A stretch of 50,272 nt of DNA from IMG/VR virus record IMGVR_UViG_3300038441_001406, positions 1-50,272 of that record. One strand, given 5' to 3'. Source of the DNA: a virus. The position numbers and the translations under genes were made by a program. This document shows, piece by piece, positions 14,240 through 48,265 of the stretch. The notes below the pieces were generated by a model. It saw only the letters and a program-made list of their open reading frames with translations. It was not told the origin of the DNA and did not search any database. Numbering within the stretch: position 1 is the stretch's first letter; each line of letters starts with the position of its first letter.

Positions 14240-15720
14240 TCTCACTTGTATTGTCATTGGTTGCGTCCGCGCATGGCGTGACGCAGTTGCTTAACCCCTA
14301 TAGCCTGCAAGTTGTAGGCGGCACCCCGACCCCCACTCCGACCGCAACCCCAACGCCGACCCCGGCAGGACTCAAACCTTTGGTCGGCGGGATCATTCAC
14401 TTGATCGGCGGCTCGACGCCGTTCTGTGATAAGATCGACTCAGCTGTTTCCTTGGATTACCCGTGGGTCGATGGCTACCGCGGACGGACCACTTGGAAAG
14501 CGGTGCAGCCCAGCGCGCCGCCCGCAGAGTTGCAATGGGAGTGCATCGACCGAGCCTTGGCGACCTGCGCAGCTCACGGAAAATTCCTAACTCTATCCAT
14601 AGGGGCAGGAATCAACACGCCGGATTGGGTCTATGACAGTGCGCCAACCGTGCCGCGATTCCCTTGCGACAATGATACCGTCCCCGGCAACGAAAGTAAC
14701 ATGCCGTGGTCGGCCAATCTCAATTACCTGGCTAAATGGAAAACCTTCATCGCTGCCTTTGCGGCGCGCTACGATAACAACCCAACTCTGCGCGCCGTGT
14801 TCTTTACTGGCCAAGGGCAGCAGATTGTCGAGTATCACGTTACGGCCACAACGGAGAACTTCGACCGCTGGCGAGGATTAGCTGTAGCTGACGGCCGCTT
14901 CCCTGATGACACCGGCCCGCCTAACCTCAAGGCGGAAGATAAAGCCTTGCGCTTTGCCACCAAAGAAGTCATCGACGCTTACCAATTGGGTTTCCAAAAG
15001 ACGCCCCTTCATGCGACCGGTGGCAATCCATGGAGCGGCGGTCAAGCGGGGAATGACACAGAGGCTTACCAAGAGTCACTGAGCACTACGGCGCGGAGCG
15101 GCCTGTCCAACTCCACGTTGAAGGCTACCCTGACTCATACCAACATCCCGCAACTCAGGACCTATCCTTGGGGCAGGCAAGCCATCTTTTCCAGTGCGGA
15201 TCATGGCCGTTTTTACTCACCCCCGATTGACGATCGTGTTTACACGGATGCAACCCTTACAGTTGGCTCAACCACGATCACATTCCCCACCGGCGCAGAT
15301 GGATTCACTCCACCGGGGACGCGGGATGTGGGTCATGTCATAGCAGGCTCAGGTATCCCGAACACGCCGCCTTCGACCATCGTCGCGGTCAACAGCACGA
15401 CCAATATAACTATTTCAGCAGCGGTAACGAGCAATGCCGGGACAGGAAAGACGATCAATGTCGTGGACCAACCGCCGCCGCCGCAGTGCATTGACGATTA
15501 TTTGCGGAACGCTTTCGACACAGGCTGCCAATATACCGAGGTCTATGAGTTCGACATCGAAGGGAGCGGAGTCAATCCCACAATTAACAACGCCACCTTC
15601 ACAACACATCAGCCCCGTCTGAAAACCAACATACCAGGCGCGCTGCGCAAGGTAACACCGACGCCATCACCAGCAGCTAAAGGAAAGGCTAGTCCGAAGC
15701 CGAAAGGTAAAAAACCATGA
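14218..15720 (+). CDS. Exported glycosidase-like protein, 500 aa
   Basis: Residues 1-20 are a signal peptide (MRLRLSLVSLVLSLVASAHG). Residues about 35-48 are a Thr-Pro linker. Residues about 55-350 look like a TIM-barrel glycoside hydrolase: a WVDGYRGRTTWKAVQPS start, GKFLTLSIGAGINTPDWVYD with the typical strand-then-TPxW pattern of family 42-like barrels, and a later ATGGNPWSGG loop. The candidate acid residues cannot be assigned by eye. A beta-type insertion follows (about residues 340-420), and the C-terminus is Lys/Pro-rich ([13 protein letters not shown]). It overlaps the upstream gene by 22 bases and the next by four. A polysaccharide-cleaving role is inferred. Confidence 0.6.
   Translation: MRLRLSLVSLVLSLVASAHGVTQLLNPYSLQVVGGTPTPTPTATPTPTPAGLKPLVGGIIHLIGGSTPFCDKIDSAVSLDYPWVDGYRGRTTWKAVQPSAPPAELQWECIDRALATCAAHGKFLTLSIGAGINTPDWVYDSAPTVPRFPCDNDTVPGNESNMPWSANLNYLAKWKTFIAAFAARYDNNPTLRAVFFTGQGQQIVEYHVTATTENFDRWRGLAVADGRFPDDTGPPNLKAEDKALRFATKEVIDAYQLGFQKTPLHATGGNPWSGGQAGNDTEAYQESLSTTARSGLSNSTLKATLTHTNIPQLRTYPWGRQAIFSSADHGRFYSPPIDDRVYTDATLTVGSTTITFPTGADGFTPPGTRDVGHVIAGSGIPNTPPSTIVAVNSTTNITISAAVTSNAGTGKTINVVDQPPPPQCIDDYLRNAFDTGCQYTEVYEFDIEGSGVNPTINNATFTTHQPRLKTNIPGALRKVTPTPSPAAKGKASPKPKGKKP
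14321..14364 (+). repeat. Thr-Pro codon repeat
   Basis: Tandem ACC/CCG-type codons encode a short [12 protein letters not shown] linker after the signal peptide of the glycosidase-like protein. It is the first of four such linkers in the window. Confidence 0.85.
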
Positions 15721-18700
15721 ACCGACGCCTTCTCTTTTTTCTTCTGGTCATAGGCTTAAGCATCGGGCAGGTCTGGCCCCAAGCGCCACCGACGATCATC
15801 AACATCCCGGTCGTAGCGCACCCCGCGGGCGATCCTACCGCGACTCAGACAGGCGTTCTCTATGTGCCTGACCCAGTGTTCTTCCCCGGCCCTCGACCTT
15901 GTGTTGTGGGAACCAAAGCAGGACACTTCCAAGATGGCGGCCTCAACACTCTCACTACTTCGTTTACTGACTTAGCCAACCGCGGTTATCTCTGTCTGGC
16001 CTTTGATGTTCGGTTGCTCAATCCACCGGGGATAACTGGACAAACCACCTCTGGCAAATATCCAGAACAGACCGATGACATGAGGGCCGGGATTCTCTAT
16101 ATGCGTCCCGGCCACGAGATTCAAACCGTCCACGGTAAAGCTGTCAACGGATTCGTAGCTACGTTAGGCGGCAGCGGCAGCGCTCACCATGCCATCTACA
16201 AAGCAATGAATGGAGTAGTCGGTTTGGATAGGGCGGACGCGTGCATCGCTATGTCTCCGGATGTGGACTTCTCAGACCGAACGCCACCGCTTACCGATGC
16301 TGACCCGTTTGCTACAAAGAGTGCGGAGTATGCCAACGAACTCGTGACGAATTATCCGGCCCTCTTAGCCAAGTCACCGATCGCGCTCATCTCGAAAAGT
16401 AACAAACCTATTTGGCACGGCAACGGCGACAACGAAACCATGCCGTTGTCACAGCAGACGCGCTTCAAAAACGCAATCACAGCTGCGGGTGTCACTAACT
16501 ACACATGGAAGACGAACGGCGGCCCGGGCGTGGGCAACCAGCATTCCTTTGCCATGTGGCCCTTCATCAAAGTGGAAGCCATGAACTGGCTCGATGCCCG
16601 CGTAGCTGAGTTCAAAGAGACCCGGATTTGCGCTGACCTGTCTTACGCTGAGGTGAACAATGCAGTGAATGGGGTGGTGACAACGGGCCACTCGACTTGG
16701 ACAACGGTGGCACCAGATGGCGCAACGGTCATGCTTCCGGCCGGATCATCTACTTGGGCAGTTGGCTCCCTGCTCACGGTAACGAAAGACATCCAGATCA
16801 TTGGCGCAGGAATAACTAACACCATCATCAGTGGGAAAAATCAGATAATCAAACTCACTGGCAACAACACCAACTTGGTCTCGCTGCCCTACACACAGCG
16901 CCTAAGCGGACTGACGTTGACTTCGACGGCACCTTCAACCTTGGAACCTCTTATCATCAACGGGACCAATGTGATTATCGAAGGCGTTGGCGGCAGCTTA
17001 ACTGGAGGCTTCAGAGTCGACCACGTTTTATTCAATGGCGATTTCGCTAACCGGAAAACCATCAACATCCTGGGATGGAATGAGGGCGTGGTCGATCACT
17101 GCATTATTGATACAGATGTTTCCATCAGCGCGGGAGAACACGTTATCATCAACCATGCCACATCGCCGAGTGGAACGGGCGGCTATGGTGACTGGTCATG
17201 GGCTAACCCTTACACCTTGGCGGGTCCGCATCAGGTTTATTTTGAGGATTGTATCTTCAAACGCTCTCCCGGTGGCACTGATACGGAACAGTGGGCCGCA
17301 GCATTACCCGGTGGCGGTCGCTACACGGCTCGTCATGTCACCAGTTGGGGACAGTTAGGCGGTGGACATGGTGCCCGCGAAACAGGGGCAGTCAGAGGCA
17401 CCGGACAGCGGGCAGGAGAGGCATACAAGAATCTCTTTATTCGACAGATAGAAGCCCCTGCCCAAAGCAGTAATTTCAACGCTCCTCGTGCTGGTGAAGG
17501 TGTAACTTGGGGCAATCGTTGGATTCGCCCCGGTGCCACTGTGCAGTCCGGCATCCCACAAACCCCGCTAGCTATCTATGCTTACACTATCGGAGAATTT
17601 AGTGGGACTAACTGGGGTCCTGCCGATTCTCTGAACCCGTTCGATCAGAACCAGAAAGGAACTTTCACTTTTAATACTCATGGTCAGGACACCAACCCCA
17701 TCTACACGCACACTTATTCGCCGGATGCCTCTTACACTAATGGAACCGTGGTCGCAGGCGTGGATTCTATTTCCACCAATGGGGATGTTTACGCGCATGG
17801 CGTGGGTGGCTCTAACTGTAAGGGCACGGCTTGTGGCGAGCCGGGAGGTTTTGCTTCCTATGAGTATCTGTTAGGCACTGGTTTGGACATGCACGGTGTG
17901 ATGGATTATTGGAGAGGGTTTGTAATTCGCAACTTGAACACTCCAAGGTTGGCGCAAGAAAACATCAGTTGGGCCTACATTCTGAAATCGAATCCCACGA
18001 CTGGAATTTTGACTATCATACAAGCTAACGATCATACGGATTCGTCGATACATCACAGAATGAATCTTGTTCCCGGTGACCCATGGGAGATTAGAAAAGT
18101 CAAATCTTACTGGAACGTTCCCGGTGGTGGATCAATGGATACGTCTCTTGATAGTAATGCCTTTAATCCACCTCTATTGGTGAGTGGCAGTCCAAATCCT
18201 AGATGGACAAATGAGCCAGCCGTAGGCAATCATCAATGGGACAATAAATACACGATTACGACCGGCGCTCCCTTCGCACTTGTCGATCCTTATAACACTG
18301 ACACGGGGGATTATTCTTTAGCTATTCGCGGGACCACGAACGCTGCCAAGGTCGGTTATCCCTATGACCCTGCCACCCTTGCAGGCAGTGCCGGCCCGCC
18401 TGAAATCAGACCTGACACTCGTGTTGGGGCCGATGCGGAAGCGTGGTCATTGGTTCCTAGTTCATGGGCTTCTGGCACCGGAGCAAATTCTCTGGCCGGT
18501 TCCGCTTCTGTTTATGAGCCGGGAAGTGGCGGTTACAAATACCCGCATCCATTGGTTACAGTTCCAGCTGCAACACCAACACCAACACCAACGCCCACAC
18601 CTACTCCGACGCCCAGCCCGACACCTACACCTACGCCTCAGCCCCCGGGCTGTCCGCGCACTTGTGCTGACTTGTCTTTCGCCGAGGTCAATAATGCCGT

Positions 18701-21700
18701 CACTGGAGTTACGAGCACCGGCCACACGACTTGGACAACACCCGCGCCGGATGCCTGCCATGTTATCCTGCCCGCAGGGACAGCGGACTGGGGCACGAAC
18801 AGGCTTCTGGTTAACAACCTCATCACGATCAAAGGCGCGGGGATGCTCCTAACCAACATAGATACCTCGTTCAGTTTCAATGGCACACCGCCGACCTTGC
18901 GCGGGTCCTTCGGCTTCATCATCGCCAACGCTTCCAGCCCAACTGTCACTTGGGGATTGCAGGGCCTGACCATTCATCAGGTCACAGCGGTTAACGGTTC
19001 GCAGACATTATATGTGCAAGGCGGGAGCACAACAGCGAACCCGATCAAAGGAATCAGCGCAGGCTGGCGCATGAGTGACGTAAAGATTTACTCGCACAAC
19101 TTCGGTGGACCGCTCATGAGTTTCCGCGACACCATAGGGGTAAACGATCACTGCATCTTCGACAGTGGCGGAGACACAAGTCAGTGGGCCGACTTCCAGA
19201 ACGAGCACTGGGGCGGCCACCAGAACTCGCATGGGGCTTGGATGGAACCGATCCAATATGGCACCGACCGTTTTATGTATTTCGAGGATTGCCTCATGCT
19301 ATGGGGCCGGTGCGACTCGCACGAGGGCGGCATGTTCGTGGTCAGGCATTGCCGGTTTAAGAACGCGGCCGGAGCCACCGATCACGGGACCGAAAGTCAT
19401 CCCCACGGAGTGAGAGCGCAGGAAGTCTATAACTGCTGGTATACGGAGCACCCGGGCCCGGGCACGGAGAATCGGTCCGGCACCTGCATCATGCACGACA
19501 ACATTCAAGAGCCAGCGACAGGCATCACGAATCTTTTCCATCGGCGGCTGGTCAACCACCGCAACCGGATCATCAAGAACGCAGGCAGTCCGGACGGGAA
19601 CAATCCACACTGGAATAGAGCGCCCGCAAGCTTCACCGCGCCCGAAGATCAAAACTCAGAGTTAGCTAACCCGCTGGCTCTGCCGAGCATTACGAACGAG
19701 CCGATCAATGGCAACGTGTCGCCCGATCTTTTCACCGGCACAGTCACTAGCGCGATGCTGGTCAACACCACACTAATGACTGACACAGCCGCTAATGGCG
19801 GGGCAGGCTGGGCCGTTAACCAATTCCTCTGTGCGCCGCTCGACGGGACCGGATTGAATAGTTGCGGTTTCACTTACACCCTGGTCAACACGGACCATCC
19901 TGATATGTCAACGGCCTATATCGTGAGTAACACGGCCACGACTCTCACCGCTGGGATCAACGTCGGGGGCGGCAATGATCCGCCGATTAGCTTTGCCTTG
20001 GGCGAGCACTACGCCATTCGCAAGACTTTCGCGGCATTGGACCAGCCGGGAATGGGCATGATGGAGATGAGCAATGCGGATGCGGATGGCATCGGCGACG
20101 TATTTACATTGCCCAATAAGAACACCACGCCCGGGACCTGCACAATTCCCAATGTCAATAGTCCCGCAGGAGCCAAGGCTATCGGCTGGCAGAATCAGAA
20201 GCTTGATCCTTGCTACGGCTGGAACAACTGGAGCGGGCCGGGCTTCACTCAAGGGCGCGAGCTAAAATTCAAGAGCGAGCAAGGCCAGATAAAACAAGGC
20301 CGCGACTTCTTCAACACACAGAAGCCAGCCCCGGGCTACGGCTCATTGTTAGGCGGTTTGATTAGTGAGACCTATTCGCCCGGATATCCAGTCATCACTT
20401 CGCCAACCACAGCGCAACGGCAGGTTGGAGCCAAGGGCATCAGCGGGATTCTCGACAGCGAGATCCTGAATACGAATACAGTGACAGGCGTTGTCACAGG
20501 GTTCACTTACCCGCACCCTCTGGCGGGCGGGCCTGCGCCGACCCCGACCCCAACTCCAACACCTACCCCAAGTCCAACCCCGACGCCCACGCCGACTCCA
20601 ACTCCAACCCCGACGCCCACGCCGACCCCGACGGCGACTCCAACACCTACGCCCCCGCAATGCGTGCGCAATAGTGTTGATGTCTCTTACGCGGCAGTGA
20701 ACAACGCGGTTAATGGAGTGGTCTCAGGCAGCTACAACACTTGGACAACTCCAGCACCAGACGGTTGCACCATCGTCCTGCCGGCAGGCACAGCTACTTG
20801 GACAACCTCACTCATCGTAACTGCCAATCTAACAATAATGGGCCAGACCATGGTTACAGGAGCAGGCGGCCCCGTGGCTTCGGTTGTGGTTAACGATCAG
20901 ACCATCATTATCGACGAAGTCACTCCGCGGAAGCAAATCATCTACATGCAGGAGACAGACGAAAACGAGCCAGTGCGGATTACTGGGATCACCTTTCGCA
21001 AAGGCGTCGTCCAAACCGGCCAATCCTTCGACGGCTTAGTTAGGTTTTCCGGTAACTGTAAGAAGGCCAGAGTCGATCATTGCTTCTTTGACACATTGTA
21101 TGGCGTCGGCGTGAGCTTCTTTGGCTGGATGTATGGCGTAGTCGATCACTGTTATTTCAAGGAGTTGTTAGCCCATCCGGTTATCGTGGAGCACCAGACT
21201 TGGAATGGCGCTGACTGGGGCCATGGTTCTTGGGCCGATGATCCTTGGTGGGGCAGTGACAAATTCATCTTCATCGAAGATTGCACGGCCACAGCGCAGA
21301 AAGCGATAGGCGATGGCTTCGATTCTTTTGAGGGCGGCCGCTATGTCATTAGGCATTGTGACCTGACAAGCTTGCGAGTTGGCAACCATGGCACTGAAGG
21401 CCAAGGTCGCAGTGGGAAGCAAATTGAGTGTTACGAAAACGCTTTCCACTTACGGACCGATGCCACCAATAAAACAAGCGGCCAGCTGCGCGGCGGCTCG
21501 ATGCTGCAATGGGGCAACACATTCGATCCAGCATGGGTCAAGGGCACAACCTTGCAGGTCTATCGGCCTTATAAGCCTTCGCCTCACTACGGCCCGTCTG
21601 ATGGCCTGAATCTCTGGGATAAGAACCATTGGAACCCGGCCGCGAGCGTTGATTATTACGCGATTGGGACGCACACCGGAGCGGTAGATGCAGCTAACCT

Positions 21701-22586
21701 AACAGACAGCAACCCTTCCAAAACATGGTGGGATAACGACGGCACGCCGCGCACTGGTCCATGGACGATCAATCGATGGTTCCAGCAAGGGGTAAATTAC
21801 ATGGTGCGAAATGTGACGAAAGAAGTCCCGGGCGATGCGGCAGAGAATCATGTTTGGTCTGTGGCCAACTCCGGCGATACAGTCACTGTTTCAACCACAA
21901 GCTTCAATGGCCAGCACGTTCAGTTTGATCCGGGTGACGTTTACCAAATTTGGCGCGTGGACCAAGTTTTGGATTCACCGGGCACGGGCAGGAGTGATCT
22001 TATGCAAGGTCAAGGCACTTGGACGCCAACCGGACCGGACGGCGGCATCACTCCTTATGCCGACCCGCATCAAGTGCTGGAGCCTTCTTATTGTTGGAAT
22101 CAAAGTTTCTGCTACGAAGCGAGTGGCACCAATCTCTTAGAAGGCCGCGACTATTTTAACAACATACCCAAACCGGGTTACACGCCGTTCCTTTACCCGC
22201 ATTACTTGGCTTCGAGCGGTTCAGGCCAGCAGATCGACGTCCCAATCAGCCATGACTTCGGCAACGTGATTATTGGCACCTCAGTGATCTATGACATTCC
22301 GGTTAGGAATGGGGGCAACTCTACAACCACAGTGAGCGGCGTCAGCTATCCCCCGCCTGCCTATAGCGGCCCCACTGACGGCTTCATTATTCCCGGCGAT
22401 CTGGAAGCAACCATCACCAAGACCATGACTTTCAATCCTCTGACTGCCGGCACTTTCGATGGGGATGTTATCTTTTTTAGTGACGGTGTCGGGAACGGCA
22501 CCATGCACGTTACCGGGGTCGGTGTAGCCCCGCCCGCACCGCCCGCCGAGTTGAATGTTATCCCGATGATTATACTTCGACGATGA
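15717..22586 (+). CDS. Giant exported esterase plus triple beta-helix protein, 2289 aa
   Basis: Signal peptide at residues 1-22 ([20 protein letters not shown]). Residues about 25-300 form an alpha/beta-hydrolase esterase domain with the nucleophile elbow G151-G-S153-G-S (last Gly replaced by Ser), an Asp in GNGDNETMP and a His in GNQHSFAMW. Then come three related right-handed beta-helix modules starting near residues 305, 983 and 1652. Each opens with a (D)(L/V)S(Y/F)AxVNNAVxGV block, carries VDHC or NDHC turns and a (F/I)EDC turn, and ends YPHPL or YPHYL. Modules 1-2 and 2-3 are joined by Thr-Pro linkers. Residues about 2165-2280 form an Ig-like domain of the SPD-2/Hydin kind ([20 protein letters not shown]). 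It is probably a polysaccharide lyase/esterase or adhesin; which is not decided by sequence. Confidence 0.75.
18571..18645 (+). repeat. Thr-Pro codon repeat, linker between beta-helix modules 1 and 2
   Basis: About 75 bases of degenerate six-base units (ACNCCN) encode a (TP)n linker. Similar linkers at 20536 and 48766 share near-identical units, which makes them possible sites of recombination between modules. Confidence 0.85.
20536..20658 (+). repeat. Thr-Pro codon repeat, linker between beta-helix modules 2 and 3
   Basis: About 120 bases of ACNCCN units encode the longest (TP)n linker of the window. Within it a longer unit (CCAACCCCGACGCCCACGCC) occurs twice, so slippage or unequal exchange has probably acted here. 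Confidence 0.85.
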
Positions 22587-26495: not shown

Positions 26496-27278
26496 ATGGC
26501 AGAAGTAGAGGAAATCAAAGAGGAAACATTGGGAGTCAATCCGCCGGTCGATCTCATCGAGTTCGGCCAAGCTAAAGATGGGACCACTCTGCATTGGGCG
26601 GTCAAAGAACCAGACAGAGACCAGTTCGCGCCACCTTGGTATTGCGTCCTCGCTGTGCACGGCGGCGGCTTCACTGGCGGGACACCAGGCACGCCGATTG
26701 GTGTCGCTGGGCCGGATCTCGCAGCGGCAGGCTTTATCGCTTTCTCGCCCGAGTATCGCTTAGCGCCGCCCGGAAAGATCGCAGGGCAGACATCGCTCGG
26801 CCGCTATCCGGACCAGACGGATGACTTGGCCGTGGCCATTGATGCCGCGACCAAAGACGATCGAGTGAAGGGCAATCCGCAAATGGTCGGCGGCAGCGGC
26901 GGAGCTTATCAGACAGCGTTTTGGGCAGCGAAGGGCGTGCTCACGGGAGTAGCTCTCTCGCCTTGCTCGCAACTCGATGATGCGATTGATCGGCGGAACT
27001 TCCCAACCTTTGCGGCTAAGTGCGACAACTACGCTGCGGGCCAATTGAGGGAAGCCTCGCCCAACACCTATGTGAATGAGGCTTCCAGACCGCTCCTGGT
27101 CGTGGCTTATTCAAGTGACCAGATGCCGCCCCGGCAATACAGCCGACTCGTGGAAGCCCTAGCTGCTTTCAACATCGAGCACGGCGCCATCCTGCTGCGA
27201 GGCAAAGGGCACTCATGGGATGCGTGGGTAAAGGTGAAAGCACAGGCCATCGCTTTTCTGCAAGAGCATAAAGCATAA
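26496..27278 (+). CDS. Alpha/beta hydrolase (carbohydrate-esterase-like), 260 aa
   Basis: ATG 26496 has GAAAGGAAAG upstream. The protein carries the hallmarks of an alpha/beta-hydrolase esterase: an oxyanion HGGGF motif at about residue 55, YRLAPPGK after it, the nucleophile elbow G132-G-S134-G-G136, an acidic site in YSSDQMPP and the catalytic His in GKGHSWDAW near the C-terminus. No signal peptide is present, so it acts in the cytoplasm or as a virion part. It shares the motifs G(R/K)YP(D/E)QTDD, GGSG, D-x-MP and GHSW/QHSF with the N-terminal domain of the giant exported protein, so the two are paralogues. A substrate such as acetylated polysaccharide is inferred. Confidence 0.75.
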   Translation: MAEVEEIKEETLGVNPPVDLIEFGQAKDGTTLHWAVKEPDRDQFAPPWYCVLAVHGGGFTGGTPGTPIGVAGPDLAAAGFIAFSPEYRLAPPGKIAGQTSLGRYPDQTDDLAVAIDAATKDDRVKGNPQMVGGSGGAYQTAFWAAKGVLTGVALSPCSQLDDAIDRRNFPTFAAKCDNYAAGQLREASPNTYVNEASRPLLVVAYSSDQMPPRQYSRLVEALAAFNIEHGAILLRGKGHSWDAWVKVKAQAIAFLQEHKA

Positions 27279-27303
27279 ACGAGCGAGAAAGCGTTTTGAT
27301 GTG

Positions 27304-27987
27304 ATGAGCGCAAGCAAGAGAGCAGCGAGCAAGAAAAACGATGGAGAGGCGTCGCAGCGCTCGCGCCCGCGCCGTTCCAATGGTGAGCATGAGGTCGAAA
27401 TGCTCAACCCTGCGAAGCTCGTGCCTTATGAGCGCAACCCGATGCAGCATCCGCCCGAGCAGATCGACCTTATCTGCCGCTCGATTAAGGAATACGGATT
27501 CACGATCCCGCTCCTGATTGACGAGAACAATATGATCCTCGCCGGTCATGGGCGGCAGACGGCCGCATTGAAGATGGGCCTGACTCAGGTGCCCGCAGTC
27601 CGCAAATCCGGACTGAGCGAAAACCAGAAGCGGGCCTATATCATGGCGGATAACAAGATCGCCCGGAACGGCGAGTTTGACTGGCGCTTAATCAGCGAGG
27701 AATTGAAAGCGCTGGATGAGGCTGGGTTCGATCTCGCTCTGACCGGCTTCCGTGACTTCGAGTTTGGCCCGCTGATTGAAGCGGACTGGACACCGCCACC
27801 CATTCACGAGAGCCAACTGGGCGAGCTGGACGTTTATCACATCACGGTAACGGGCCTGCAAAAACAATGGATCGACCAGGCGCATACCAAGATGAGGAAC
27901 GAAATGAAAAAACGCGAGCTACCGCTGCCCGAAGCTCTGGAATTGATATGCCAAAAGTATCTCGGGAAAGTCGCAGTGCGAAAATAG
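27304..27987 (+). CDS. ParB/Srx-fold protein without methylase domain, 227 aa
   Basis: Residues about 30-115 are a ParB-type N-terminal domain: LNPAKLVPYERNP, then EQIDLICRSIKEYGFTIPLL, then the ILAGHGRQTAALKMG motif (GHGR is the ParB/Srx signature). The following YIMADNKIARNGEFDWRLI block is the part that in many phage and plasmid proteins precedes a DNA adenine methylase domain, but here the chain ends after a charged helix. ATG 27304 is preferred over GTG 27301. The end overlaps the DpdA start by 40 bases. In bacterial Dpd clusters a ParB/DndB-superfamily protein (DpdB) partners with DpdA; position here suggests a comparable helper role (inference). Confidence 0.75.
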   Translation: MSASKRAASKKNDGEASQRSRPRRSNGEHEVEMLNPAKLVPYERNPMQHPPEQIDLICRSIKEYGFTIPLLIDENNMILAGHGRQTAALKMGLTQVPAVRKSGLSENQKRAYIMADNKIARNGEFDWRLISEELKALDEAGFDLALTGFRDFEFGPLIEADWTPPPIHESQLGELDVYHITVTGLQKQWIDQAHTKMRNEMKKRELPLPEALELICQKYLGKVAVRK

Positions 27988-28886
27988 CAGCGCCGACTAT
28001 TCGGCTGGCTGCGACTTGCGCGCTCATGGGGCACAACAACGAAGCGAACATCACTGCGCGTTATCCTTTTCACCGCAACAACATGGAAGGCCCGACGGTG
28101 CGCCTCGCTCATGTGCCGGGGGCGCAGGGCGACAACTGTTTGCTTGGTCAGCGCGGGACCAAAAAACTTCCAGCAACCAGTGCGCCGGCGCTGCTCGTCA
28201 GTTATTTTTATCTGGAAGACTGGTTAAAGAACCGGCACCGCTACATTATCCGCGACTGGGTGCTGGACTCGGGCGCTTTTTCCGCGCGGGAAAAAAACAT
28301 TGAAATCAACCTGACCGATTACATCGAGACCTGTAAACGACTCATCGACGAGGAAGATCAGTTAACAGAAATCTTCGCTCTCGATGTCATTGGCGACTGG
28401 AAGAAGTCGCTCTCCAACACAAAACGGATGTGGAAGGCAGGCATCCCGGCCATCCCCTGCTATCACCTGGCTGAGCCATGGGATCATCTCCTCGGCCTCG
28501 CCAAGGATTATCCGAAGATCGCCATTGGTGGCATGTCGCGGCTGCGCGGCAAAGCCATCACGACTTACATCGAGCAGTGTTTCGCCCGCGTCTGGCCCAA
28601 GCCGGTGCACGGTTTTGCCGTCGGTGGCCGCGATCTCATCATGCGTTTTCCGTGGCACTCGGTGGACGCGACAAATTGGGAATTAGGCCCGTGTGGATTC
28701 GGACGCTGGAATGCCTTTGGGCAGTTGAGTGTTCGGGGCTCGAAACAAAATCTTCGCTCCGAGATAGAATTTTATTTGGCTCTCGAACGGGAAGCGCGCT
28801 CCCGATGGTCAAAAGAAATGGCGAAGCTTGACGGGCTTCCATCGTTGCGCGAACAACGAGACGCGCTATGTCCTCGACGATCCTGA
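27948..28886 (+). CDS. dpdA: DpdA-type DNA 7-deazaguanine transglycosylase, 312 aa
   Basis: DpdA is a DNA-acting relative of tRNA-guanine transglycosylase that swaps guanine for preQ0. Key features seen: VLDSGAFSA with Asp107 (TGT enzymes have DSGGFQ here), FALDVIGDW, a KIAIGGMSR turn, HGFAVGG, and HSVDATNW with Asp240, where phage DpdA proteins have SVD(S/A)T-x-W, the likely nucleophile region. About 310 residues is usual for phage DpdA and shorter than tRNA enzymes. ATG 27948 is chosen; ATG 28026 or 28083 are also possible because the first 45 residues look poorly conserved. It overlaps the ParB-like and QueC genes. Neighbouring queC, queD, queE and folE genes supply the substrate. Confidence 0.8.
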   Translation: MPKVSRESRSAKIAAPTIRLAATCALMGHNNEANITARYPFHRNNMEGPTVRLAHVPGAQGDNCLLGQRGTKKLPATSAPALLVSYFYLEDWLKNRHRYIIRDWVLDSGAFSAREKNIEINLTDYIETCKRLIDEEDQLTEIFALDVIGDWKKSLSNTKRMWKAGIPAIPCYHLAEPWDHLLGLAKDYPKIAIGGMSRLRGKAITTYIEQCFARVWPKPVHGFAVGGRDLIMRFPWHSVDATNWELGPCGFGRWNAFGQLSVRGSKQNLRSEIEFYLALEREARSRWSKEMAKLDGLPSLREQRDALCPRRS

Positions 28887-29536
28887 TTTATAGCGGTGGT
28901 TTGGATAGCACAGTCCTGCTTTACCGGCTGCTCTTCTTGAAAGAAGATGTTCGCGCTCTGAGCATCAACTATGGGCAACGGCACTTGAAAGAGATCGCAG
29001 CGGCCCGCATGATCGCGGTCAGAGCTGGCGTGACGCACAAGGTAGCGGATCTCTCCAGTGTGCGACAATTTCTGCGTGGGAGTAGCCAGACTGATCCAAG
29101 CGTGGAGGTGCCACACGGGCATTACACGGACGAGTCGATGAAACAGACCGTGGTCCCAAACCGAAACATGCTCATGCTTTCAGTGGCGCTCGCGTGGGCT
29201 ATCAGCGAAAAAGCAGACTCTATCACTTACGCGGGGCACTCCGGCGACCGCGCCATTTATCCTGACTGCCGGGAAGAGTTTGCCAGTGCCTTCAACACCG
29301 CAGCCCTTTTGGCCGACTGGCATCAAGTCAGACTGGAACGACCTTTCATTGATATGACCAAGGCTGAGATCGTGACCATGGGCAATGAGCTTGATGTGCC
29401 CTTCGGTCTGACCTGGAGTTGCTACGAAGGGCGTGCCCAGCATTGCGGGCGCTGCGGCACCTGCGTCGAACGACAGGAAGCTTTCCGAGAGGCGAACGTA
29501 AAAGACCCAACCGAGTATGACCTGATATGTTGTTGA
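28868..29536 (+). CDS. queC: QueC, preQ0 synthase
   Basis: QueC converts 7-carboxy-7-deazaguanine to preQ0 using ATP and ammonia. Seen: the PP-loop SGGLDST at residues 9-15, SINYGQRH at about 36-43, PNRNMLMLSVALAWA, a YAGHSGDRAIYPDCR block, and the zinc site C185, C193, C196, C199 (CYEGRAQHCGRCGTC). The 222-residue length is typical. The gene overlaps dpdA by 19 bases and the P-loop gene by 10, so the operon is tightly coupled. There is no amidotransferase-type QueC extension, so the base made should be preQ0. Confidence 0.93.
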   Translation: MSSTILIYSGGLDSTVLLYRLLFLKEDVRALSINYGQRHLKEIAAARMIAVRAGVTHKVADLSSVRQFLRGSSQTDPSVEVPHGHYTDESMKQTVVPNRNMLMLSVALAWAISEKADSITYAGHSGDRAIYPDCREEFASAFNTAALLADWHQVRLERPFIDMTKAEIVTMGNELDVPFGLTWSCYEGRAQHCGRCGTCVERQEAFREANVKDPTEYDLICC

Positions 29537-30156
29537 TTACCGGGATGCAACGCTGCGGCACTTCGCTGACGGCCGACTTTGTTCGGGCTTGCGGCTATCC
29601 AATGACCGGACCCAACGATGCAGTGGGCAAATATGAGGATCCGGAAATCACGATGGCGTATCGCTACATCCTGAAAGATGAAATGTTTCCTTGGGACGGC
29701 TACCCGTTTTACATCCCGAAGCATCTGAGTCAGCCGTTGCACGACATCGAGCGGCCCGCAGCCAAGTTCGCCTACTTGATGATGGACCCCGTCTTCATGC
29801 AAATCTGGATTGAGCACCGCGGTCACAAACACGATCGCATGTTGATCCTGGCCCGGGAGACGGAAAAGATCGTGCGGAGCAAAGCCAACACTCCAGAACG
29901 TGCCCGCCTGTTCGCTCTTGACTCGCACCGGCTGCGCTTGACCGCAGAGCAACTGAAACAGAACTGGTTCGACTCCTTCATGCTTCTCCTCAATAGCGGC
30001 ATCCCTTATCGCGTCCTCAAGTTTCCAATCTTCCTCGACGACTACGATGCAGTCCGCGGGGCGCTGCAAGAGTTCGGCGGGCTGGAAAAGATTCCCAATG
30101 ACGCGGCGCTCTGGCGGACTATGATCGACCGCAAGAAAGTGACGGCGGAAACATGA
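29527..30156 (+). CDS. Sulfotransferase-like P-loop protein inside the preQ0 operon, 209 aa
   Basis: The N-terminus ITGMQRCGTSLTADFV has the P-loop style of PAPS-dependent sulfotransferases (R-x-GT-S/T), and MLILARETEKIVRSKAN at about residues 101-117 resembles their 3'-phosphate-binding segment with Arg and a later Ser. The rest is helical with a KFPIFLDD segment. Length is short for a sulfotransferase (usually about 250-300). It overlaps queC by 10 bases and queD by four, so it is part of the modification operon. It might sulfate or phosphorylate a precursor or a modified base (inference). A related nucleotide kinase cannot be excluded. Confidence 0.6.
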   Translation: MLLITGMQRCGTSLTADFVRACGYPMTGPNDAVGKYEDPEITMAYRYILKDEMFPWDGYPFYIPKHLSQPLHDIERPAAKFAYLMMDPVFMQIWIEHRGHKHDRMLILARETEKIVRSKANTPERARLFALDSHRLRLTAEQLKQNWFDSFMLLLNSGIPYRVLKFPIFLDDYDAVRGALQEFGGLEKIPNDAALWRTMIDRKKVTAET

Positions 30157-30587
30157 TCACCTGCGCCAAACGTTACGAGAACTTCCCCTGCGCGCATCGA
30201 GCGCCCGATCATGACGGCCACTGCAAATTGATTCACGGCCACAACTGGGCCTTCGATATTGTTTTCGCAGCAGAGCGGCGGGACCAGAATGGATTTGTCG
30301 TCGACTTCGGCAAGCTCGGACCGCTGAAAGAAAAGCTGACGGAGTATTTCGACCACACCTTACTCTTGAATGAGAACGATCCGTTAAGTGCCTCAATCGA
30401 CTTGTATCTGACGGCGCACAATATCGGGAATGTCGTGCTCGTGCTTGATTGCTCTTGCGAAGGGATCGCCGAGCTTGTCTTCAATCTGGCCGACGACATG
30501 GTGCGCGGTCTGACAAGAGGGCGGGCCGGGGTCGTGCGGGTCACGGCGCACGAGGACACAAAGAACTCTGCCACCTATCGGCCATGA
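30153..30587 (+). CDS. queD: QueD, 6-carboxytetrahydropterin synthase
   Basis: QueD makes 6-carboxy-5,6,7,8-tetrahydropterin from dihydroneopterin triphosphate, the second step to preQ0. Seen: zinc His15, His28 and His30 (CAHRAPDHDGHCKLIHGHNW, residues 13-32), the catalytic Cys24 four residues before HGHNW, VVDFGKLGPL for the next strand, and an FDHTLLLNENDP segment with the usual DH. At 144 residues it is a little longer than the common 120. A short insertion follows DCSCEGIAELV. It overlaps the P-loop gene by four bases and queE by four. Confidence 0.92.
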   Translation: MITCAKRYENFPCAHRAPDHDGHCKLIHGHNWAFDIVFAAERRDQNGFVVDFGKLGPLKEKLTEYFDHTLLLNENDPLSASIDLYLTAHNIGNVVLVLDCSCEGIAELVFNLADDMVRGLTRGRAGVVRVTAHEDTKNSATYRP

Positions 30588-31300
30588 TTCGGATATCAGA
30601 AATCTTCGGCCCAGTGATACAAGGTGAAGGCATCCATATCGGCGAGCCCACAATTTTCGTTAGGGTCGGCGGCTGCGACTATCGCTGCTCATGGTGTGAT
30701 ACGATGTATGCCGTCGACCCCATTCACCGCGCCGACTGGCATCCGATGAGTGACGCAGACATCTGCGCTGCGGTGCAAGAGTTAAGCAGTAAGCCCATCC
30801 TAATCACGCTCTCCGGCGGCAATCCAGCGCTCTACGACTTCGCCAATGTCATCGCCCACATGCAGGCCAGCGGTTATCACTTCACGATCGAGACGCAAGG
30901 CAGCATCGCGGCCAACTGGTTTCGCCTGCTCGATTCCATGACGCTCTCACCAAAACCGCCAAGCTCGAATATGCCGACCGATTACCAGAAGCTCGAACGC
31001 TGCATGGACTTTCTTGAACCCGACCGGATCAACCTAAAGATCGTGGTAGCCGATCAAGAGGACTATGAGTATGCGCGCCAGACCGCAGCGCGCTTTCCGC
31101 ATCTGCGCTGCTTTCTTCAGGTCTGCAATCCCAACCCGACCAGTGACACGTCACATCCATTCGATTTGGAACGCGAGCGCGACCTGCTCTTAGCCAAACT
31201 GCAATGGCTGACTGAGTTGGTTCTAGCGGATAGCTGGTTCAAAGCGACAGTGCTCCCACAACTGCACGTTCTAATTTATGGCAACCGGCGCGGCGTCTAG
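30584..31300 (+). CDS. queE: QueE, 7-carboxy-7-deazaguanine synthase (radical SAM)
   Basis: QueE is the radical SAM enzyme that contracts the pterin to 7-carboxy-7-deazaguanine. Seen: FGPVIQGEG at residues 8-16, the cluster motif C31-x3-C35-x2-C38 ([10 protein letters not shown]), [10 protein letters not shown] at about residues 84-93 where family members have TGGEP, and SPKPPSSN for the later SAM-binding strand. ATG 30584 overlaps the QueD stop (ATGA); a longer upstream frame runs wholly through QueD and is rejected. Length 238 is usual. The gene overlaps the FolE fusion gene by 23 bases. Confidence 0.92.
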
Positions 31301-32126
31301 GAAGGTTCTCTGGCCCGAGATCATCAGTCGCGTTGACGCACTGCCCCGCGATCACATCTACTACGGCATCCCTCGCGGGGGCACGATTGTGGCAGGGCTG
31401 GCTGCGTCGCGAGATTTAATCGTGACTGACAATCCAGCAGAGGCCACCGCTTATCTCGACGATATCGTTGACAGCGGCGCCACCAAAGCCAAATGGGTCG
31501 GCAAACCTTTCTTCCCACTGTTCGAGCGCGACAGTGCCTGGTTGGTCTTTCCTTGGGAACAGGATATGCAGACCGACGCGGAAGACATCGTCCGCCGCCA
31601 ACTCGAACTGATCGGCGAGAACCCAAACCGCGAAGGATTGAGCGCCACACCGCGGCGCGTCGTGGCTAGCTGGAAAGAGTTGTTCGCAGGATATCAACAG
31701 ACCGCCGAGGAGGTTCTGCGAAGCGACTTCGACGCAGACGGATACGACGAGATGATCGTCTGTCGGGACATCCAGTTTTATTCAACTTGTGAACATCACC
31801 TACTGCCCTTCTTTGGCCGCGCTCATGTCGGGTATCTGCCAAACAAACGAGTCGTCGGATTATCCAAGCTGGCGCGCCTGGTCGAAGTGTTCGCCCGCCG
31901 TCTCCAAATTCAGGAACGATTGACGCAGCAAATCGCGCAAGCACTGAACGAGCAGGCCCGACCGCGCGGCGTCGGCGTGATCTGCGAAGCGACGCACTTC
32001 TGCATGTTGTGTCGCGGGGTGCAAAAGCAGGAGTCAACCATGGTAACATCCGCGCTGGTTGGTCTCTTTCAAAAGCCCGCAGTGCGCGCCGAATTTCTCC
32101 GGCTGGCGCGGCGCTGCGAAGCTTAA
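31278..32126 (+). CDS. folE: Phosphoribosyltransferase-like domain fused to GTP cyclohydrolase I, 282 aa
   Basis: Residues about 95-282 are GTP cyclohydrolase [38 protein letters not shown] (Cys and His zinc ligands in CEHH), [19 protein letters not shown], and [19 protein letters not shown] (third zinc Cys). The enzyme makes dihydroneopterin triphosphate from GTP, the first step to preQ0. Residues about 10-90 are an added domain with [14 protein letters not shown] and the PRPP-binding-type loop [10 protein letters not shown] at residues 60-69, as in phosphoribosyltransferases. It ends WLVFPWEQD. The stop TAA is the left arm of hairpin copy 5. What the extra domain does is unknown; nucleotide handling or GTP supply is plausible. 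Confidence 0.88.
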
Positions 32127-35610: not shown

Positions 35611-36357
35611 ATGATATTGGCAGCCAAAAAGACAATGAAGATACATCCGTTTGCGCGGATGTTCAGTCAGGTCGCGCCGCTCTCGAAAGAGAAGCGCGAC
35701 GAGATGGTGAAGAGCATCGAGAAGAACGGGATACTCATTCCGATGTTGGTCAACAAGAAGAAGGATACGATCTACGACGGGGCGACCCGTTGGGGCATTG
35801 CCTACGACTTGAAGCTCAAACTCGAGGATGACCGCTTCGAGGTTTTTCCGAGCGAAGACGAGGACGATATTCGGGAAGCGATCGCGGCCCGCAACATCGA
35901 CCGGCGGCAGTTGACTGATAAAGAGCGCTCCGATCTCATCTCAAAACTCTTCGGGCCGAAGCTCGAAGAGGAAGCAAGACAGCGGCAGAGCAAGGCGGGG
36001 AGCTTCAAGGGGGCGACCAAGCTCGATGGCAAAGGCAGCGTGGCGGAGAAGATCGCGACCATGGCTGGTGTAAAAAAGAGCACAGCGCAGCAGTCAGAAA
36101 AGTTGCGCAAGGCTGGCGTGCTTGATGATGTGCTGCAAAAGAAAACAGCTCGGACGGCAGCACTCAAGAAAGCGCCGACCAGGAAAAAGGCCGCGAGCAA
36201 GTCAACGATTCCTTTTCCCGACCAGGTCTATAAGAAGTGGAGTCAGTTCGTGGCCCGCTTCCCTCACCCTGTCCGGCGCGAAGTGATCGAGCTGGTGCAT
36301 GGCTGGACGAAGCCGGGCGCGGCGGTCCCGAAGCCCTCAACTCCGGCCAAGAAGTAG
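35611..36357 (+). CDS. ParB-like nuclease-domain protein, 248 aa
   Basis: ATG 35611 has GGAGG 10-12 bases upstream plus the AACCAGAAACA leader. Residues about 5-100 are a ParB N-terminal domain: KIHPFARMFSQVAPLSKEKRDEM, then VKSIEKNGILIPMLV, then DGATRWGIAYDL. A basic/acidic middle follows (EAIAARNIDRRQLTDKERSDL), where ParB proteins have an HTH, and the C-terminus is Lys/Ala/Pro-rich (KKAPTRKKAASKST). It is a second ParB-fold protein, unlike the one next to dpdA. A role in regulation or DNA binding is likely but unproven. Confidence 0.75.
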   Translation: MILAAKKTMKIHPFARMFSQVAPLSKEKRDEMVKSIEKNGILIPMLVNKKKDTIYDGATRWGIAYDLKLKLEDDRFEVFPSEDEDDIREAIAARNIDRRQLTDKERSDLISKLFGPKLEEEARQRQSKAGSFKGATKLDGKGSVAEKIATMAGVKKSTAQQSEKLRKAGVLDDVLQKKTARTAALKKAPTRKKAASKSTIPFPDQVYKKWSQFVARFPHPVRREVIELVHGWTKPGAAVPKPSTPAKK

Positions 36358-46614: not shown

Positions 46615-47213
46615 GAAGAAAGGGAGCGTCGCCGTCCTTATGGCTAACCGAGAAGGCGCGGAAACGAGTGGTTAGTTTGCGACGGCGGCGCTACCGCTCA
46701 CAAGAAGCGGAGGTGCGGGCCTACTATCGGCATGTCTGCAAGATCGGCTGGTATGAGCCAATGCAGAAAATACCGGCAAAGAACTTCACCGGCTGGTGCT
46801 TCGCGGCTGAGGGTGACTTCGTCTACCTGCGTCCAGCTTGTCAGGGTTACCGCAATGGTTATCCAGTGCACCATAGCCGGAGCGGCAATAGCCGAGTGAC
46901 TTTGATTGAATCGGCATGGATCGCGCAAAGTGAGGAAGCTTGGGCAAAACGATTCGTGAAAAAGTTTCACGAGCGGGCTGATGAATACGACCGCCAGTTG
47001 AAGCGCTACGACAAGCGGGGCCGCATTATAGAGTTGTTGATTAAGAAACGTTGGCGGCGCTATGGGGCAAGCTTTCGGGCAAACTTTCGCGGAACCGAGA
47101 TCAACATTGAGGAATTACCCAACGCCGTTTTGCAGTTAGCAGAAGAGTTGACCGCCCTCAGAACAGCGATAAGGAAAGTAACCAAAAAACCAGAAAGGAA
47201 ACAGATAGTATGA
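46611..47213 (+). CDS. Hypothetical basic protein, 200 aa
   Basis: The GTG at 46611 lies in the previous stop (GTGA). The protein is strongly basic (RRKGASPSLWLTEKARKRVV, SLRRRRYRSQEAEVRAYYRH) and contains CFAAEGDFVYLRPACQG. A nucleic-acid-binding role is possible. The stop overlaps the DUF932 gene (ATGA at 47210). Confidence 0.55.
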   Translation: MRRKGASPSLWLTEKARKRVVSLRRRRYRSQEAEVRAYYRHVCKIGWYEPMQKIPAKNFTGWCFAAEGDFVYLRPACQGYRNGYPVHHSRSGNSRVTLIESAWIAQSEEAWAKRFVKKFHERADEYDRQLKRYDKRGRIIELLIKKRWRRYGASFRANFRGTEINIEELPNAVLQLAEELTALRTAIRKVTKKPERKQIV

Positions 47214-48265
47214 AAGAAGGAAGATCGTTAGCCACGGTGCTAACACAGGTGAAAGAAGAGCAGAAACAGAAGCGGGACTTTATCGTCCCGACCTCTAAGC
47301 TCAGATTCGACCCGATAGACGAAGGCCGTATCGCCTTCAAGATCGGGAAAGAGGAACATAGGACAACGCCAACCAGGCATTGCCTGAGACAGATAGCGAC
47401 GCAGGCGCACATCCCGGCGACTTACGTTGACCGGATGCAGGGCGAGCACGCGGGCTTGCTCGCGCAGAACATTAACTATTGGTGGAAGAACACGCCTAAG
47501 AGGCGGATGCTGCGGACCTTGCTCAACGGCGAGCACAAGGCCCGCGCTTTTCTCTCGGACGGTTATCGGCCGCTGGAGAACAGCGATCTGGCAGCCATCA
47601 TCCTACCCAAGCTCGAGGCGCTCAACTGCAACATCCTCTCCTGCGAGATGACGGAGACGCGGTTCTATATTCAAGCGGCGAGTCCGAAGGTGCAGGCCAA
47701 AGCCGTAGGCGATGTCGTGCAGGCAGGCGCAGTCATTGGGAACAGCGAGGTTGGCTTGGGCCAGCTTTTTCTCGACCCGATGATTTACACCTGTAGCTGC
47801 ATGAACGGGGCCATCATGCCGCGAGCCATGGGGCGTTATCACATCGGGCGGCGCAAAGACGCAGAAGAGGACTTCGACAAAGCGCGCGAGTATTATACCG
47901 ATGCGACAAAAGAGATGGATGACCGGGCCTTCTGGATGAAGGTCAACGATGTGGCCGACGGCCTCTTCGACCGCGATCGATTCAAGGCCATGGTGGAGAA
48001 GTTCACGAGTTCAGCGGAACAGCGGATCAAGCCGGTGGAAGCGGTAGAAGAAGTGACAAAGCGCTTTCTCTTCAGCGAGAAAGAGAGCGACGCAATCCTG
48101 AATCACTTCATCGAAGGCGGGCGGCCTAACGTTTACGGCCTCATCAACGCCGTGACGCGAGCCGCGAGCGATGTCGAGAGTTACGACCGCTCGATTGAAA
48201 TGCAGCGCGCTGGCGGCCAGATTCTGGAACTGCCGAAGAGCGTCTGGACGGGCTTGGGCAAATAA
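47210..48265 (+). CDS. DUF932 phage/plasmid-type protein, 351 aa
   Basis: ATG 47210 follows AACCAAAAAACCAGAAAGG (leader at 47188). It matches DUF932 proteins carried by phages and plasmids: HCLRQIATQAHIPATYVDRM, then LNGEHKARAFLSDGYRPLEN, and the later VGLGQLFLDPMIYTCSCMNG segment. These proteins are widespread in mobile DNA and their role is not settled; some lie next to ERF or RecT proteins. Length is usual. A G-rich repeat unit GGGCGCGTCC occurs twice after its stop. Confidence 0.75.
   Translation: MKEGRSLATVLTQVKEEQKQKRDFIVPTSKLRFDPIDEGRIAFKIGKEEHRTTPTRHCLRQIATQAHIPATYVDRMQGEHAGLLAQNINYWWKNTPKRRMLRTLLNGEHKARAFLSDGYRPLENSDLAAIILPKLEALNCNILSCEMTETRFYIQAASPKVQAKAVGDVVQAGAVIGNSEVGLGQLFLDPMIYTCSCMNGAIMPRAMGRYHIGRRKDAEEDFDKAREYYTDATKEMDDRAFWMKVNDVADGLFDRDRFKAMVEKFTSSAEQRIKPVEAVEEVTKRFLFSEKESDAILNHFIEGGRPNVYGLINAVTRAASDVESYDRSIEMQRAGGQILELPKSVWTGLGK

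Follow-up and report, generated by a model that had tools for sequence, protein, structure and literature searches.

A putative preQ0 DNA-modification operon with a phosphoribosyltransferase-FolE fusion in an uncultured contractile-tail phage

Guanine modification in phage DNA is a known means of evading bacterial DNA-cutting enzymes. Escherichia phage CAjan and Mycobacterium phage Rosebush, which form a second group of such phages, carry FolE, QueD, QueE, QueC and a phage DpdA, and dPreQ0 and restriction data have been published for this gene set, in which no amidotransferase is seen (PMC6884629). We analysed a window comprising the whole of IMG/VR virus record IMGVR_UViG_3300038441_001406 (50,272 bases), in which seven genes on the plus strand within 27301-32126 encode, in this order, a ParB-like protein, DpdA, QueC, a protein termed P0003, QueD, QueE and FolE. 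We read this cluster, with a probability of roughly 0.77, as a phage DNA-modification operon. FolE, QueD, QueE and QueC would convert guanosine triphosphate (GTP) to preQ0, DpdA would swap guanine bases of the phage DNA for preQ0 to give dPreQ0, and dPreQ0 would protect the DNA against restriction enzymes. Reactions, product and protection are all predicted by homology to phages in which they were measured, and dPreQ0, as in CAjan and Rosebush, is the most likely product. The window differs from those two phages in the extra P0003 and in the ParB-like gene upstream; its FolE also bears an N-terminal phosphoribosyltransferase (PRTase) domain. The preQ0/DpdA system is already known; the fused PRTase domain and P0003 are new.

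A previous interpretation made from the letters of the window (hereafter the sequence-only reading) had named the same five pathway proteins. All five were recovered on the plus strand with Pfam, NCBIfam and PHROGs:

28083..28886, plus strand: DpdA, DNA-guanine transglycosylase of the TGT superfamily (phrog_887, 3.7e-31; start inferred)
28868..29536, plus strand: QueC, preQ0 synthase (PF06508, 1.1e-61; TIGR00364, 190.9 bits, cut-off 150.3)
30153..30587, plus strand: QueD, 6-carboxytetrahydropterin synthase (PF01242, 1.4e-25, over the Pfam cut-off; phrog_2389, 1.7e-30)
30584..31300, plus strand: QueE, radical SAM 7-carboxy-7-deazaguanine (CDG) synthase (TIGR03365, 3e-88, 295.4 bits, cut-off 206.1; phrog_2076, 3.4e-38)
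31572..32126, plus strand: FolE, GTP cyclohydrolase I domain (PF01227, 2.3e-72; TIGR00063, 231.7 bits, cut-off 181.6)

The identities of these genes, homologues of FolE, QueD, QueE and QueC together with a phage-type DpdA, follow from their sequences. NCBIfam equivalog models exceeded their cut-offs for QueC, QueE and FolE, and the FolE model superimposed on 1wm9_E with a Z score of 24.8 and a root-mean-square deviation of 1.7 over 181 residues. QueE carries the cluster motif CDYRCSWC; its match to the generic Radical_SAM Pfam family was under the cut-off. DpdA was recognised solely through PHROGs and through similarity to annotated phage proteins, with 26-33% identity to DpdAs of cultured phages among the 40 matches listed. 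Its D134-S-G-A (DSGA) motif and D267 were invariant in 7 of 7 aligned distant phage DpdAs and in 12 of 12 DpdAs of its own clade; we take D134 and D267 to be the acid and the nucleophile of TGT enzymes. The dpdA reading frame is open from ATG 27867; however, the N-terminal stretch PTxRLAHxPGAQG conserved in DpdA relatives begins just past ATG 28083, and the start was therefore placed there. No clear ribosome-binding site was seen ahead of this ATG.

QueC has the features of canonical QueC (PF06508 cluster 1), namely SGGxDS, YxQxHxxE, VPxRN, YPDC and the Tyr-containing Cys zinc motif, present here as SGGLDS, YGQRHLKE, VPNRN, YPDC and a CY...CxxCxxC cluster. Its first two cysteines are separated by seven residues (x7) rather than eight (x8), and no amidotransferase domain is attached. 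In a study of Escherichia coli QueC, alanine mutants of the residues in these motifs were inactive (PMC13329287); the four Tyr/Arg positions reported there as essential are all present in the window QueC. It is highly improbable that the genes serve queuosine synthesis for host tRNA instead of DNA modification. preQ0 is also a precursor of queuosine (PMC6884629). However, the match of the transglycosylase is to phage DpdA families (phrog_887), and phrog_887 had no match in 14 control genomes. Several of these genomes presumably carry ordinary TGTs.

Two further genes complete the cluster:

27301..27987, plus strand: ParB-like gene, directly upstream of dpdA (phrog_620, 2.3e-44)
29527..30156, plus strand: P0003, protein of 209 amino acids with no family assigned, between queC and queD (codon-usage score given below)

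Overlaps of 19 (dpdA/queC), 10 (queC/P0003), 4 (P0003/queD), 4 (queD/queE) and 23 bases (queE/folE) suggest that the operon genes form a single transcription unit, possibly including the ParB-like gene. The sequence-only reading had put the overlaps at 4-40 bases, which agrees with these values except at the parB/dpdA junction, where a 95-base gap (dpdA start at ATG 28083) or a 121-base overlap (ATG 27867) is found. The contractile tail that it had proposed was confirmed by a sheath gene (phrog_23, 5.4e-66) and by baseplate, neck and tail fibre families of PHROGs. Erf-like and exonuclease genes lie to the right of the operon. None of the 48 open reading frames (ORFs) scanned with PHROGs matched a terminase, portal, capsid or DNA polymerase family; the record is thus probably a partial genome. 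QueF, ArcS and Gat-type QueC were likewise absent from these 48 ORFs (PHROGs) and from 28 window ORFs (Pfam); QueF models matched weakly, through the T-fold of FolE only. Since the contig is probably partial, the claim of a complete operon without QueF or amidotransferase-type QueC stands for this contig but not beyond it. A verrucomicrobial host had also been suggested and found no support: the nearest cultured tail sheaths belong to Pararheinheimera and Vibrio phages (43-45% identity), and a scan of bacterial genomes for the DpdA clade gave nine loci, eight of them contigs of metagenome-assembled genomes and none titled Verrucomicrobia. What that reading had observed was right, its central proposal is likely right, and its interpretation as a whole is partly supported.

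Relatives were gathered by DpdA and QueE scans of IMG/VR (at least 107 loci), with 2 loci added through FolE and 5 annotated phage loci; these 114 loci and the window make 115 sources, annotated by phmmer. The sources were fetched by similarity to DpdA, QueE, FolE or PRTase and include near-copies (e.g. L057, L058, L059 and L063; L002 and L101 are the same contig), so that the following counts are those of a non-random sample and not population frequencies: FolE 104, QueE 101, QueD 100, DpdA 94, QueC 77, PRTase 40, ParB 33, QueF 6 and P0003 1. The gene order ParB-DpdA-(QueC)-QueD-QueE-FolE recurs in the nearest relatives. PF06508 was found in none of six whole records in which QueC was seemingly missing, all six of which may be fragments. 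A ParB-like gene lies within 400 nucleotides of dpdA in 26 of the 94 DpdA-bearing sources, and its product could guide DpdA to DNA sites. In a sister phage, IMG/VR contig 3300036846_000250 (L089), the tail sheath is 73% and QueE 58% identical to those of the window; QueD is kept, as is the PRTase-FolE fusion, with 65% identity in the FolE domain.

The sequence-only reading did not mention the domain fused to FolE:

31278..31571, plus strand: Gpt-like PRTase domain, N-terminus of the folE product (RGG loop; profile matches)

The N-terminal ~98 residues of the folE product lie outside the FolE domain. A profile built solely from fused copies matched xanthine and xanthine-guanine PRTases (6.9e-8 to 5.9e-7), aligned through W..PW, and a wider profile including stand-alone copies reached Gpt (1a95) at 6.5e-21. 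Stand-alone copies matched Pribosyltran in 4 of 4 cases tested (1.9e-14 to 1.2e-8). The window PRTase part by itself matched no Pfam family in a direct scan, and a fold search with the whole FolE-PRTase model returned, among the matches listed, FolE and other T-fold chains only; the assignment therefore rests on the profile of relatives. The AlphaFold2 model of FolE-PRTase (15 sequences) had an overall predicted local distance difference test (pLDDT) score of 89.8, with block means of 64-97 in the PRTase domain, most of them above 85.

Three features are common to the window domain and Gpt (1a95): the pyrophosphate loop RGG, the phosphoribosyl pyrophosphate (PRPP) motif DDxxD[ST]G and the W..PW end. 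In contrast to Gpt, the window domain is shorter, is fused to FolE and lacks the insert from which the flexible loop of Gpt is built; this insert is absent from the fused PRTase profile. Of the features of 6-oxopurine PRTases, the flexible loop and the purine-site Lys are missing; at the position of this Lys in most relatives, the window copy carries Arg. Because of the lost insert and the Arg, PRTase activity is not assured, and we refer to a Gpt-like domain rather than to a proven Gpt enzyme. The acidic residue D65 is invariant in the PRTase alignment; the corresponding residue contacts N7 in 6-oxopurine PRTases. No paper connecting a PRTase to FolE and DpdA in phages was found within open-licence literature. 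A gene of one Campylobacter phage bears the annotation "purine phosphoribosyltransferase / queuosine biosynthesis protein"; thus, annotators had joined PRTase and queuosine before.

The fusion is not peculiar to this phage. With the PRTase part as query, tblastn retrieved 35 phage records (E ≤ 0.1), in most of which the matched gene is called GTP cyclohydrolase; in 4 of the 35 the match is weak (E 0.07) and falls on a stand-alone phosphoribosyltransferase of a Flavobacterium phage. Among 92 distinct FolE domains placed in a tree, 29 were fused to a PRTase, 8 had a separate PRTase in the same locus and none was seen for 55, so that a PRTase accompanies 37 of the 92 FolE sequences. The fused label needs 18 changes on this tree (mean of 25 after shuffling), and at least 8 changes are forced by well-supported branches; on this tree, the fusion has thus been gained or lost repeatedly. 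DpdA and a FolE with the same N-terminal PRTase occur in the Queuovirinae PaMx25 and VpKK5 and in Stenotrophomonas phage ply2008005c; however, their gene order is queE-queC-queD-folE-dpdA, and the PRTase part is not labelled as such in their annotation. In PaMx25 (L004, 5914-6813), the annotated folE start is apparently too late: an open upstream frame carries the PRTase domain, and a hypothetical protein in a different frame is annotated where the PRTase part lies.

Three functions of the domain were considered. The most likely job, which we put forward tentatively, is recycling: the PRTase would convert guanine, including that released by DpdA, to guanosine monophosphate (GMP) and thence to GTP, the substrate of FolE. 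This function was placed first because of the likeness to Gpt, the fusion to the GTP-consuming FolE and the presence of DpdA. It is doubtful, though conceivable, that the fusion renders the modification pathway self-feeding (DpdA-freed guanine to GMP, GTP, FolE and further preQ0). No paper on where the DpdA-removed guanine goes, or on how phages provide the pathway with GTP, was found in the open-licence literature.

A somewhat unlikely alternative is that the domain has lost its catalytic role and now serves FolE in regulation or assembly. Its length of only ~98 residues, the missing insert and the window Arg for the conserved Lys are consistent with such a loss; however, the acidic pair that binds PRPP shows no variation, most relatives retain the RGG loop and W..PW, and full-length stand-alone PRTases, some with the insert, occur in the loci of other phages.

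It is unlikely that the PRTase acts on a 7-deazaguanine base (preQ0 or CDG) and PRPP to form a nucleotide for later reduction and polymerisation, a route that could run alongside DpdA base exchange or replace it. A precedent is TubE of tubercidin synthesis, a proven CDG phosphoribosyltransferase (PMC6112128); it too is a PRTase in a pathway with FolE/QueD/QueE-type enzymes, although that pathway is a bacterial antibiotic pathway, and the likeness is one of pathway. PRTase genes also occur in phages without a phrog_887-type DpdA (Campylobacter F379 and Cellulophaga phiST), and a PRTase lies near ribonucleotide reductase in phiST and in Brevundimonas MaInes, in the latter also near a deoxynucleoside monophosphate kinase. 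However, DpdA, which needs the free base, is present in the window and in most fused cases, the PRTase profile is nearest to guanine/xanthine enzymes, and the N7-contacting D65 is invariant even though 7-deaza bases have no N7. phrog_887 misses the annotated DpdA of Flavobacterium immuto, and the lack of a phrog_887 match therefore cannot prove that DpdA is absent. A MaInes gene (57861-58661) suspected by eye to be DpdA2-like was matched neither by the immuto DpdA query nor by phrog_887 and remains a guess.

P0003, which the sequence-only reading did not mention, very likely represents a genuine gene: at 0.215 per codon, its codon-usage score is on a par with those of its neighbours, whereas the antisense ORF scores -0.025. 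Relatives of P0003 were found neither in PHROGs, Pfam, NCBIfam, solved structures, phages and plasmids, nor by an IMG/VR 8-mer scan and one degenerate DNA pattern, nor in the 114 viral/phage loci and 11 related records (the sister phage and 10 others). No credible relative was found in 5 + 246 + 299 genomes, a search that had no positive control and carries little weight. The N-terminal GMQRCGTS resembles, we presume, a sulfotransferase phosphate loop, and no search supports a family: Pfam and NCBIfam gave no sulfotransferase match, and the single-sequence AlphaFold2 model was unusable (pLDDT 37).

The stretch between dpdA and queD varies in relatives, where it holds a QueF-like gene (PF14489, 5e-16) in L022 (5971-6357), a DUF6884 gene (1e-17) in L010 (9514-9957) and a Methyltransf_23 gene (1e-9) in L012 (1186-2001). 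This position is possibly a slot for tailoring genes. The final base might then be a tailored preQ0 derivative with P0003 as the tailoring enzyme, which we consider quite unlikely. P0003 does lie inside the operon, with overlaps of 10 and 4 bases, and reads as coding, and the relatives named above hold other genes at this position; however, it has no detectable family or usable model, the sulfotransferase likeness is confined to the N-terminal motif, and P0003 is missing from the sister phage and from 10 further related records.

Several observations weigh against the proposal that the operon makes preQ0 for insertion into DNA. DpdA matched no Pfam family over the cut-off and no NCBIfam model, and QueD scored 61.5 bits with TIGR03367, under the cut-off of 89.25. 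The contig is probably partial. The product is uncertain, because P0003, with no assigned family, lies inside the operon and could alter it, and because the genes between dpdA and queD differ in relatives. The sister phage has a divergent DpdA-like protein (6.4e-19 against the DpdA profile), and QueC was not found over its 57.8-kb record; therefore, this lineage may not always make preQ0.

Divergent DpdA-like proteins (IDSG...SCDSSTW) lie directly after ParB in the sister phage (2811-3779) and in L090 (3393-4331), again with no QueC found in either; these proteins may insert a base other than preQ0. In one viral contig (L002, 905-1789), QueD is apparently fused to an HNH-like N-terminal part, as judged by eye. 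A Thalassobacillus pellis contig from a sequenced isolate (L123, 8584-9627) has a DpdA-like gene whose flank is without other pathway genes, possibly in a prophage. In the window itself, a second ParB-like gene is found at 35611-36357, and an alpha/beta hydrolase gene (BD-FAE/Abhydrolase_3) lies at 26496-27278, between the tail genes and the operon. A protein of 2289 amino acids is encoded among the tail genes (15717-22586) and gave a weak Ig-like match only. A phrog_1362 protein (3.3e-50) at 47210-48265 has relatives in 227 phage records, mostly of mycobacteriophages.

With the preQ0 operon, an already described strategy against restriction would reach an uncultured lineage of myovirus-like phages. 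The differing genes that relatives carry between dpdA and queD offer a lead to undescribed 7-deazaguanine tailoring. The PRTase-FolE fusion bears on the fate of the guanine removed by DpdA and on how the phage supplies GTP to the pathway. If the fusion does recycle guanine in this way, it would, given how often it was gained or lost, be a general and previously unrecognised component of phage 7-deazaguanine systems.

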